Assembly: GCA_002731795.1 (NCBI GenBank)
Contig: PCCQ01000020.1
Coordinates: 1 to 32,211, forward strand
Source of the DNA: Fidelibacterota bacterium
GTDB lineage: Bacteria; Fidelibacterota; Marinisomatia; SCGC-AAA003-L08; D37C17
Reading direction: 5' to 3'
DNA: 32,211 bases
Position numbers and translations under genes: made by a program. Every line of letters starts with the position of its first letter. Within the stretch, counting starts at the first letter, position 1. Below, one piece after another: positions 1 through 2,390 of this stretch. The notes under the pieces were generated by a model. The model was not told the DNA's origin. It searched no databases and saw nothing but the letters and a program-made list of their open reading frames with translations.

Positions 1-189
1 TGAAGGAACTACTGAACCTGTAAATGAAAACGCTAAAACTGTTGTACCACTTGCTGATACTGTAAATCCATTTGCAGTTGCATCACCTCCTGCTGCTCCG
101 TCTACGCAACCGTCATGTGAAAATTGAAATCCTGCAATATCAGATGTACTAGAATAATTCAGGTTTCCACCATCTAAACTTAAGCAAAC
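1..189 (-). repeat. Module 3 of the secreted protein (partial copy)
   Basis: Residues 356-418. Over 62 aligned residues it differs from module 2 (526-831) at only four positions by my reading, so this is a recent intragenic duplication or a homogenised copy. The copy is cut by the window edge. Confidence 0.8.
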
Positions 190-1254
190 ATCGGTATCTG
201 CTGAGCAACCGCTATCATTTGAACATGATGATCCATCACCTTCACAAATTCCACATTCATCTTCTAATGCACTTCCACCGCATTCACCATTACAATCTGT
301 TCCTACTAAACAGTTACCATCGCAATCAAAATTTTCTTCTGGTCCATCACCTTCACAAATTCCACATTCATCTTCAATTGCATCACCAGCACAAACTCCA
401 TTGCAATCTAAATCAGCTGTACAATTACCATCACAATCAAAATTTTCTTCTGGATATTCGCATGTGCCATTATCAGTATTAGCTGATTCGTCAAAATTAC
501 ATGCAGTGTCATCGGTACATCCTAAAACCTCAATAACAGGGAAACTAACAGACAATGGTTGTCCTAAAATATTTGAGAATATAAATCCAGATAGACAATC
601 TTCTGATATATTTCCTGTAAGTTCAACAAGCGTTCCTTCACCTACCGGAACAACTGATCCTGTAAAAGAGAATGCTAAAACGGTTGTTCCACTTGCTGAT
701 ACTGTAAATCCATTAGCTGTTGCATCACCTCCTGATGCACCATCTACGCAACCGTCATGTGAAAATTGAAATCCTGCGATATCCGATGTGCTGGAGTAAT
801 CTAAATTACCACCATCTAAAGTCAAACATACCTCTGTACCATCCGGACATGATGCCTCAGGCTCTACATTACCTCCATCATCTGAAGACTGTTCAGAAAT
901 TTCCCATTCAAGAGCTTGTCCATTTACATTTGAAAAGATAAAATTTGTCAAACAATCTTGATTTATATCTCCTGATAGCTCAACCAGAGTACCTTCGCCA
1001 GCAGGTATCACTGAACCTGTAAAGGAAAAGGCCAAAACTACGGTGCCACTTGTCGATACTGTAAATCCATTAGCTGTTGCATCTCCTCCAGATGCACCGT
1101 CCACACAGCCTGTATGAAAAATCTGAAATCCACCAATATCATCAGTACTAGAATAGTTTAAATTATTACCATCTAAACTCAATGATACTTGCTGTGAAAA
1201 TGAAAAACTTAAAAATAGTATAAATTGAAGAAAAAGAACCGCTCTTTTTATCAT
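1..1254 (-). CDS. Secreted modular repeat protein, N-terminal part (runs off left edge)
   Basis: An open frame of 418 codons with no stop before the window edge, so the C-terminus is missing. It starts at an ATG preceded by a very strong Shine-Dalgarno (GGGGGGAG, 2-3 nt before the ATG). Residues 1-21 are a typical signal peptide (basic start, hydrophobic run, cut near SFSQ). Then come three copies of a roughly 95-residue beta-rich module (about 23-119, 142-243 and 356 to the edge) sharing the core GCVDGASGGDATANGFTVS and an LAFSFTGSV strand. Between modules 2 and 3 lies a Cys/Asp-rich linker (245-350) that opens with GCTDDTACNFDESA and contains two 37-residue tandem units with DCDGNC and DECGICEGDG. 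From memory, such linkers resemble calcium-binding repeats of secreted marine FCB proteins, and the modules resemble cohesin-like folds; both are inference. It is probably surface-exposed or exported; the function is unknown. A type IX sorting domain, if any, would lie outside the window. Confidence 0.85.
   Translation of the reverse strand, partial: MIKRAVLFLQFILFLSFSFSQQVSLSLDGNNLNYSSTDDIGGFQIFHTGCVDGASGGDATANGFTVSTSGTVVLAFSFTGSVIPAGEGTLVELSGDINQDCLTNFIFSNVNGQALEWEISEQSSDDGGNVEPEASCPDGTEVCLTLDGGNLDYSSTSDIAGFQFSHDGCVDGASGGDATANGFTVSASGTTVLAFSFTGSVVPVGEGTLVELTGNISEDCLSGFIFSNILGQPLSVSFPVIEVLGCTDDTACNFDESANTDNGTCEYPEENFDCDGNCTADLDCNGVCAGDAIEDECGICEGDGPEENFDCDGNCLVGTDCNGECGGSALEDECGICEGDGSSCSNDSGCSADTDVCLSLDGGNLNYSSTSDIAGFQFSHDGCVDGAAGGDATANGFTVSASGTTVLAFSFTGSVVPS
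232..342 (-). repeat. 111-bp tandem unit, copy 2 (Cys/Asp-rich linker)
   Basis: Encodes residues 305-341, beginning PEENFDCDGNC and ending DECGICEGDG. It follows copy 1 directly and in frame. The regular Cys spacing and the DxDG patterns suggest metal (calcium) or disulfide-stabilised loops. Confidence 0.8.
343..453 (-). repeat. 111-bp tandem unit, copy 1 (Cys/Asp-rich linker)
   Basis: Encodes residues 268-304 with the same start (PEENFDCDGNC) and end (DECGICEGDG) as copy 2. The middle differs (TADLDCNGVCAGDAIE against LVGTDCNGECGGSALE), so the copies are related but not freshly identical. Confidence 0.8.
526..831 (-). repeat. Module 2 of the secreted protein
   Basis: Residues 142-243. It shares with modules 1 and 3 the order LDGGNL..YSST, GCVDGA.GGDATANGFTVS, LAFSFTGSV.P and GTLVEL, followed by a Cys and FIFSN. 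Two Cys (169, 220) are conserved with module 1 (50, 101), which suggests an intramodule disulfide. Confidence 0.8.
898..1188 (-). repeat. Module 1 of the secreted protein
   Basis: Residues 23-119, directly after the signal peptide. It is the most divergent of the three copies (for example FQIFHTGC where the others have FQFSHDGC) but keeps every core motif. Confidence 0.75.
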
Positions 1255-1454: not shown

Positions 1455-2390
1455 ATGGCTAAAAATAAAATTTTATTGATTGGTGGTGGTCAAATAGGTG
1501 GTAATCTCGCTCTTCTTGCTGCTCAAAAAGAACTTGGGGATATAATGATCTACGATATTCCACAAGCTGAAGGAATGGTTAAAGGAAAGGCTTTAGATAT
1601 TTTACAGCTTCGACCTCATGATGGATATGATGTAGATGTATCAGGTACATCAAATCCTGAGGATATGAAAGATTCAGATGTTGTAATTATAACAGCAGGA
1701 ATGCCAAGAAAACCTGGAATGAATAGAGAAGATCTACTTTCTATTAATATTAAGATTATTTCTGACGTTGCAAATAATGTTAAGAAATACGCACCAAATG
1801 CATTTGTAATAGTTGTTTCAAATCCATTAGATGCCATAGTTTATTCATTTTATAAAGTATCTGGATTCTCTAAGAATAAAGTTGTTGGAATGGCCGGTGC
1901 CCTTGATACATGTAGATTTAAAACATTTTTAGCTGAAGAAACTGGTTTTTCTGTGCAAGATATTCAATGTATGGTCCTTGGTGGCCATGGAGATACAATG
2001 GTGCCAATGTTAAGATTTGCAACTGCTGGTGGAATTCCAATTACTGAATTAGTTTCAGAACAAAGATTAAATGAAATTATAGAAAGAACAAAATATGCAG
2101 GAGGTGAACTTGTAAAATTATTTGGAAATGGTTCAGCATATTATGCTCCAGCAGCATCAGCAATTGAAATGGCAGAATCTTACTTAAGAGATAAAAAAAG
2201 ACTTATTCCATGCGCAGCTTTGTGTGAAGGTGAATTTGGAATAGATGGTTATTTCATTGGAGTCCCGACGGTTATTGGGGCTAATGGAATAGAAAAGATT
2301 ATTGAATTTGAAATGAACAATGAAGAAAAAGGTCAGTTAGAGCAAACTCTTAATGCTGTAAAAGAAACAGTCACAGAAACAGGACTCTAA
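1455..2390 (+). CDS. mdh: Malate dehydrogenase (LDH-like type)
   Basis: A 311-residue cytoplasmic enzyme that interconverts malate and oxaloacetate with NAD in the TCA cycle. The Rossmann glycine motif GGGQIGG is at 10-16, with Asp34 at the end of strand 2 as expected for NAD preference. The substrate loop has Arg85 and Arg91; Arg85 is at the position that separates malate from lactate dehydrogenases. Asp151/Arg154 and the catalytic His178 (in GGHGD) are present. Length and motifs match the LDH-like MDH group throughout. The ATG follows an AGGAAA ribosome site. It is the first gene of a three-gene plus-strand operon; the symporter gene starts 14 nt after its stop. The CRP-like palindrome upstream could link it to carbon or redox status. 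Confidence 0.95.
   Translation: MAKNKILLIGGGQIGGNLALLAAQKELGDIMIYDIPQAEGMVKGKALDILQLRPHDGYDVDVSGTSNPEDMKDSDVVIITAGMPRKPGMNREDLLSINIKIISDVANNVKKYAPNAFVIVVSNPLDAIVYSFYKVSGFSKNKVVGMAGALDTCRFKTFLAEETGFSVQDIQCMVLGGHGDTMVPMLRFATAGGIPITELVSEQRLNEIIERTKYAGGELVKLFGNGSAYYAPAASAIEMAESYLRDKKRLIPCAALCEGEFGIDGYFIGVPTVIGANGIEKIIEFEMNNEEKGQLEQTLNAVKETVTETGL

Follow-up and report, generated by a model that had tools for sequence, protein, structure and literature searches.

A likely T9SS-anchored, scaffoldin-like protein with cohesin-type modules in a dockerin-bearing genome of the Fidelibacterota

In the clostridial cellulosome, cohesins stand in tandem on a non-catalytic scaffold, and the enzymes carry dockerins made of two repeats. 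The case described here resembles this arrangement. It differs in that the clostridial complex is anchored to a Gram-positive surface, contains enzymes for plant polysaccharides and has modules of about 140 residues, against about 100 here. Cohesin–dockerin complexes with peptidases in their cargo have already been proposed in the Cloacimonadota and the Planctomycetes, according to the available excerpts of the two papers (PMC8542988, PMC6461901). The first, a cellulosome-like complex of the cloacimonadotal 'Ca. Stygibacter', was proposed from MAGs. In the excerpts, C-terminal dockerins are described on C25, S8/S53 and GH57 enzymes, also on GH18 enzymes, together with a large non-catalytic scaffoldin that has repeated cohesins and a C-terminal surface-attachment domain (PMC8542988), and both features are reminiscent of the present genome. 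Nevertheless, that organism belongs to another phylum and to an anoxic lake, and its one scaffoldin, of 3,755 aa, is described there with recognised cohesins and CBM2/3 (PMC8542988). In contrast, no CBM was found here in Pfam scans of the window part of the gene and of its continuation on contig C13. The second complex, the 'planctosome', was proposed for freshwater Planctomycetes of the Nemodlikiaceae and is likewise a cohesin–dockerin complex, meant for polypeptide degradation, with an M14 carboxypeptidase in its cargo. Its anchoring differs, being ascribed to an adaptor and to a protein that has a lamin-tail domain and a single cohesin, and the excerpts of that paper do not mention a T9SS scaffold with tandem modules (PMC6461901).

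With respect to these complexes, the new points of the present case are another phylum, small genomes (here of marine MAG relatives), many scaffold-like genes (up to 11 module-bearing reading frames in this genome, against the single scaffoldin of 'Ca. Stygibacter') and cohesin-like modules that lie mostly below Pfam detection. It is also new that peptidases are the largest identified cargo in the scanned ORFs and that modules and dockerins covary across the phylum. In the open-access literature, nothing was found that joins Marinimicrobia with dockerin, or SAR406 with cohesin or type IX secretion, the newer names of the phylum being covered in part. In one paper that names both Marinimicrobia and cellulosome, the matching passages use the terms unrelatedly, and 'marinimicrobi', 'marine' and 'type IX' do not occur in the text of PMC11557425. 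In our judgement, the gene analysed here is likely to encode a T9SS-anchored surface scaffoldin of a cohesin–dockerin multi-enzyme complex.

The window, that is, the whole 32,211-nucleotide stretch of DNA that was analysed, is the beginning of contig C20 in a 1.55-Mb assembly of 93 contigs. A minus-strand reading frame stays open from an ATG at 1254 to the window edge, with an in-frame GTG at 1266; its parts are collected in Table 1. Loci with the same modules were placed in named genomes in 14 cases, 11 of them from Candidatus Neomarinimicrobiota MAGs (MED764, NAT74, MED829 and others) and the other three from 'bacterium TMED161', which is unclassified at NCBI. On account of these relatives, the window is assigned to the phylum Candidatus Neomarinimicrobiota, which NCBI now places under Fidelibacterota. 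SAR406 is the older marine name of this phylum; its members occur widely in the ocean, and most have not been brought into culture.

Table 1. Parts of the gene at the edge of the window, in window positions.
Feature	Positions	Strand	Remarks
Scaffoldin-like gene, 5′ part, 418 codons	1..1254	-	contig edge cuts it; rest = G000:C13:1-4257
Signal-peptide-like N-terminus, 21 residues, MIKRAVLFLQFILFLSFSFSQ	1192..1254	-	by-eye reading, hydrophobic
Cohesin-like module 1	886..1188	-	profile match
Cohesin-like module 2 (modelled as 523-837)	529..831	-	profile match, AlphaFold2 model, fold comparison
Cys/Asp-rich linker: GCTD...C head motif and two CDGNC...DCNG.C...DECGIC units	223..522	-	
111-bp tandem repeat, 2.0 copies, 81% match	232..453	no strand	
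Cohesin-like module 3, first 63 residues, remainder on C13	1..189	-	profile match
78 bases (reverse complement) = first 78 bases of contig C13	1..78	-	assembly break within module 3

An earlier note on this DNA had described a secreted-type modular protein cut by the edge, and this agrees with the open frame and with the N-terminus, which is signal-peptide-like when read by eye. What was there called a strong ribosome site is the purine-rich AAGGTGGGGGGAG directly 5′ of the ATG; a promoter scan 5′ of the gene gave 3 sites versus 2.6 in shuffled sequence, that is, no excess. The linker unit of 111 bp is tandem, as had also been stated, and the Cys/Asp-rich linkers are probably stabilised by disulfides and calcium. 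A linker model made from three sequences had a mean pLDDT of 36.5 and gave no structure. Since the linker motif also occurs in ORFs without a module-profile match, on contigs C3, C22, C40 and C85 (loci L039, L041, L042 and L040), it seems to be a spacer used generally in the surface proteins of this genome and not specific to scaffoldins. In Pfam, the window ORF has below-cut-off matches only (TubC_N, Lsr2, BTBD8_C and others), with no match to the cohesin family PF00963. Two other candidates were rejected: NprX of NCBIfam, which has an E-value of 2e-4 yet scores 21 bits against a cut-off of 75, and ADAMTS5 among PDB sequences, which is below cut-off (E 0.018) and aligns to the linker. Directly beside the scaffoldin gene, and divergent from it, lies a gene (window 1455–2390) that reads from its sequence as malate dehydrogenase-like.

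The missing 3′ part, in which the earlier note had proposed to look for further modules and a sorting domain, was found on contig C13, whose start overlaps the end of the window gene exactly, by 78 identical bases. The joined frame of about 1815 aa has seven modules, Cys/Asp linkers and 0 internal stops. Its C-terminus resembles that of T9SS type A proteins: the type A sorting domain TIGR04183 reaches 42 bits against a cut-off of 23, and PF18962 reaches 33.5 against 27. The join is supported by the TMED161 locus (L067), in which the N-terminal part and this C-terminus are found together, with eight modules. There, the gene is read as two overlapping frames, and this break is probably due to the 76 ambiguous bases in the stretch. 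T9SS genes are over cut-off in the genome, namely SprA (222 bits with its frame neighbours, cut-off 200) and the PorV family (234 bits, with neighbours, and 153 bits, cut-off 90). Because of its domains and these T9SS genes, the protein is expected to be exported and anchored. The N-terminal signal would take it into the Sec pathway across the inner membrane, and the C-terminal type A sorting domain would hand it to the T9SS, which would leave it on the outer surface.

Seventeen module ORFs run to a stop codon, and 12 of them carry a T9SS-type tail. Among the 19 module ORFs of the named loci, nine have such a tail, seven are cut by the end of the locus, and three stop without one, two of these at frame-broken places and the third being a 198-aa ORF with a single module. 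In the genome itself, besides the window part, three of five module ORFs with a stop have the tail (C13, C74 and C23); these three helped to build the tail profile, and two of them are independently confirmed by TIGR04183. The remainder consists of one 198-aa ORF without a tail, a trypsin-like protein on C21 that ends in a dockerin, and six ORFs that are cut.

The link of the modules to cohesins is clearest at the level of the predicted fold. The AlphaFold2 model of module 2 has a mean pLDDT of 94.5, and when it was compared by VIA-align, rows 1–29 were all cohesins (Z 9.2–6.9), the first non-cohesin being row 30; the best match (Z 9.2) aligned 96 residues at 2.6 Å. Since VIA-align itself cautions that Z values of 7–8 may be common, the agreement among the rows weighs more than the value of Z. 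The top match in Foldseek was the non-cellulosomal cohesin 2xdh (E 9e-4), the sole match below 0.001. The other leading rows were mostly cohesins, with carbohydrate-binding domains at ranks two (1exg, E 5e-3) and five (3ndy), and a further carbohydrate-binding domain, 2cwr, is among the lower rows of VIA-align (Z 6.6). As modelled, the module has a cohesin-type beta-sandwich fold, the fold with which the earlier note had proposed to compare it. By contrast, its link to cohesins in sequence is marginal: PF00963 touches 3 of 48 modules at E-values up to 0.1, and a search of PDB sequences with the module profile did not find cohesin. The genome has three Pfam cohesin matches over cut-off. One of these belongs to the module family, where the module at aa 1191–1293 of C23 falls in the matched region. 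With an iterative profile, 34 strong matches were obtained in the fetched parts of the genome; they correspond to 33 modules, module 3 being split over two contigs, and several of the reading frames that carry them lie at contig edges.

Some of these results would also suit a T9SS-delivered adhesin, in which the cohesin-fold modules bind something else, such as a glycan or particle surface, and the partners of the dockerins are further cohesins of the genome that Pfam recognises. The carbohydrate-binding domains among the structural matches favour this reading, as do the three Pfam cohesins over cut-off, one of which lies within the module family. It is opposed by the 29 uninterrupted cohesin rows and by the counts across the phylum given below, and it is considered unlikely, if still worth weighing.

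The copies of the module are older than they look. The earlier note had regarded modules 2 and 3 as near-identical and module 1 as more divergent, and had suggested ongoing duplication or gene conversion in what might be an adhesin or a scaffold. The near-identity is real at the protein level in the stretch before the window edge, where 4 of 61 residues differ; in part, however, it is an effect of the cut, as protein identity is 81% over the full 101 codons, with module 3 completed from C13. Module 1 is indeed more divergent, being identical to module 3 at 50 of 61 positions and to module 2 at 70 of 96. Silent sites tell against recent exchange: the same 61 codons of modules 2 and 3 hold 21 silent differences, and over the 101 codons dN is 0.15 and dS 0.97. 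Between the window gene and its TMED161 counterpart, the co-linear modules have dS values of 0.64 (m1–m1), 0.72 (m3–m4), 0.40 (m4–m5), 0.28 (m5–m6), 0.07 (m6–m7) and 0.33 (m7–m8), two of these six pairs covering only 78–79 codons. Since each of these six pairs has a lower dS than modules 2 and 3 of the window gene, most of the duplications predate the split, and the likeness mostly reflects purifying selection on old copies. Recent gene conversion is thus rejected, and ongoing conversion finds no support. Module 2 lies at a silent-site distance of 0.97 from module 3 versus 2.0 from its positional partner, m3 of TMED161, and an old partial conversion may have involved it. The number of modules does change between related genomes, from seven in the window gene to eight in TMED161, that is, by one extra copy, and m1 and m2 of TMED161 resemble each other closely (dS 0.50). 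The 4 differences in 61 residues and this change in number would speak for a repetitive adhesin that evolves rapidly and in which recent duplication and gene conversion keep the modules alike, but the silent-site data already disfavour it, and we regard it as highly improbable. Of what the earlier note had put forward, the scaffold reading, the cohesin-type fold and the presence of further modules and a sorting domain towards the 3′ end are supported.

Dockerins are numerous in this genome, with 50 matches to PF00404 (Dockerin_1), 48 of them over cut-off. Thirty-eight were inspected, and in 34 of the 37 that were judged the dockerin lies 9 residues or fewer from the C-terminus. In both repeats, all 37 sequences have Asp at positions 1 and 12 and Asp or Asn at position 9, while Asn3 is present in 36 (repeat 1) and 34 (repeat 2) and Asp5 in 36 and 33. 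These sequences therefore have the two F-hand repeats, with Asp or Asn at the calcium positions, that define type I dockerins. Positions 10, 11, 17 and 18 are those to which, from clostridial dockerins, we presume a role in recognition. Again for repeats 1 and 2, position 10 is I or V in 37 and 35 sequences, position 11 is L in 28 and 25, position 17 is V or I in 36 and 36, and position 18 is N in 25 and 27. The likeness of both repeats at these putative recognition positions suggests one common specificity and possibly dual binding.

To define the cargo, 39 dockerin ORFs were collected, several of them truncated where the retrieved sequence stops, and 30 were scanned with Pfam; one of these 30 has no dockerin at an E-value of 0.001, and two score under the cut-off. 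Peptidase domains are present in 9 of the 30. The enzymes found are C25 (two), M14 (two), S8 (two), C10, a trypsin-like and an S9/esterase-like one. Other cargo includes a peptidyl-arginine deiminase, an endonuclease/phosphatase, two arylsulfotransferase-like proteins, a GH57 enzyme with a CBM and several FG-GAP propellers. No cellulase family was found by Pfam in the 30 scanned ORFs, so that they lack the plant-wall cargo of a cellulosome. Seven cohesin-like modules on the joined frame and dockerin enzymes are present in the genome and may assemble in the manner of a cellulosome. Compared with typical T9SS cargo, many enzymes of this genome carry a dockerin in the place of the sorting domain.

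If modules and dockerins are partners, their numbers may be expected to move together. In a survey of 245 genomes from the phylum, 117 match the module profile and 147 the dockerin, with both in 109, the module only in 8, the dockerin only in 38 and neither in 90. With scores per genome limited to 19 for modules, 25 for dockerins and 22 for sorting domains, the numbers of modules and dockerins correlate with a rho of 0.82, and all 27 genomes with at least 20 scored dockerins have at least 5 modules. For Pfam cohesins and dockerins the rho is only 0.46, and in families f1–f4 the genomes have 0–5 Pfam cohesins, whereas most have at least 25 dockerins; both figures argue against an adhesin whose dockerins are served by Pfam-recognisable cohesins. 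The T9SS sorting domain, present in 243 of the 245 genomes, was used as a control for the size of the secretome. Its count correlates with modules at 0.32 and with dockerins at 0.43, and given this count the partial rho between modules and dockerins is 0.80. Family means give a rho of 0.84 in 25 of 31 families, calculated without f22–f27 (in none of which a module is listed, with 0–6 dockerins) and without genomes G060 and G061 of f14.

Within families, the rho between modules and dockerins, followed by that between modules and sorting domains, is 0.76 and 0.56 in f16, 0.59 and 0.29 in f18, and 0.68 and 0.38 in f29. In f30 the two values are 0.71 and 0.81, and in the genome's own family, f1, they are 0.23 (p 0.29, the module counts being lower bounds) and 0.61. 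In both f1 and f30, the number of modules goes with that of T9SS domains, as might be seen if the dockerin were itself a signal for export or anchoring, by the T9SS or another machine, and if its rise with the modules reflected a large secretome. Against this stands f5, a family of the same order that is rich in T9SS domains (median of 65 first-look candidates) and yet has modules in 5 of 11 genomes and dockerins in 2 of 11, with 1–2 each. Apart from this, Pfam cohesin matches thirteen of the small f13 genomes (0.4–1.0 Mb), for the most part in ORFs around 340–390 aa long, with no dockerin match at an E-value of 1e-4 among the matches listed, that is, a cohesin without an evident partner. In f16 and f18 there are recurrent ORFs of about 180 aa with one Pfam cohesin over much of their length.

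The tails of a single peptidase family also bear on the role of the dockerin. With an M14 carboxypeptidase as query, its dockerin removed, 50 homologs were judged among the matches listed: 37 end in a dockerin only, 13 in a T9SS domain only and 0 in both. This comparison is without L156, which has an open end, and L161, in which another reading frame is the longest. The sorting-domain profile was made from 6 and the dockerin profile from 12 sequences, so that the source proteins of the genome itself match by construction. Among the matches listed, a dockerin forms the end of all 20 M14 loci of f1 (in 20 of 23 genomes) and of all 17 close homologs of f30 (in 16 of 20 genomes). A T9SS domain forms that of both f5 homologs and of 11 of 11 further M14 loci of f30. 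Ten of these 11 belong to another M14 subfamily, with about 30% identity; the cleaner comparison is thus that of f1 and f30 with the two f5 homologs and L149 (40–46% identity).

The shared C-terminal place of dockerin and T9SS domain, and their mutual exclusion on these homologs, would again suit a dockerin that acts as a signal. The same may be said of the gene that immediately follows the scaffoldin gene downstream on C13; it ends in a dockerin and encodes a choice-of-anchor B protein (167 bits to TIGR04312, against a cut-off of 100). Nevertheless, some proteins carry both domains: L122–L131, which were set aside from the comparison since their similarity to the query is confined to its C-terminal part, include five in ten non-M14 proteins with dockerin and T9SS domain together. 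A dual F-hand dockerin is also, we assume, different in kind from a beta-sandwich sorting domain. A dockerin that serves as an export or anchoring signal is therefore judged quite improbable. The corresponding position next to the scaffoldin of TMED161 is also taken by a dockerin gene. In general, 5 of 23 neighbours of module genes are dockerin genes, against 9 of 134 for genes elsewhere (p 0.035, one-sided), a modest adjacency in which two of the five neighbours are orthologs. Two proteins combine a cohesin-like module with a dockerin, L082:4923-7106 (on C21, with a trypsin-like domain) and L066:7680-10619 (from a named locus), the latter with a T9SS-type tail as well; these are possible adaptors.

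In a surface scaffoldin as preferred here, seven short, divergent cohesin modules would be set along the protein with the Cys/Asp-rich linkers between them. Secreted proteins with C-terminal dockerins, including gingipain-type C25, M14, C10, S8 and trypsin-like peptidases and the peptidyl-arginine deiminase, would dock onto these modules and form a multi-enzyme complex that is largely protein-digesting. Because of the fold, the covariation and the alternation of tails, we infer that the modules bind these dockerins; the surface location and the substrate of the complex are inferences too. A bolder possibility, which we hold to be unlikely, is that in these SAR406 relatives the dockerin now serves generally as the surface anchor, in the place of the T9SS sorting domain. 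Enzymes would fold in the periplasm, dock on the scaffoldin, the only one to carry a sorting domain, and be exported as its passengers. If true, what the T9SS exports would be multi-enzyme complexes in assembled form.

Since dockerin and sorting domain alternate within a single peptidase family, one may ask how a protein that lacks a T9SS domain crosses the outer membrane. In addition, cohesin-like scaffolds that are largely invisible to Pfam can be detected through modules that rise and fall with dockerins. Finally, the assemblies of family f1 are of 1.1–1.9 Mb, and a docked multi-peptidase complex at the surface, if true, would give SAR406 a concrete means to use particulate protein.
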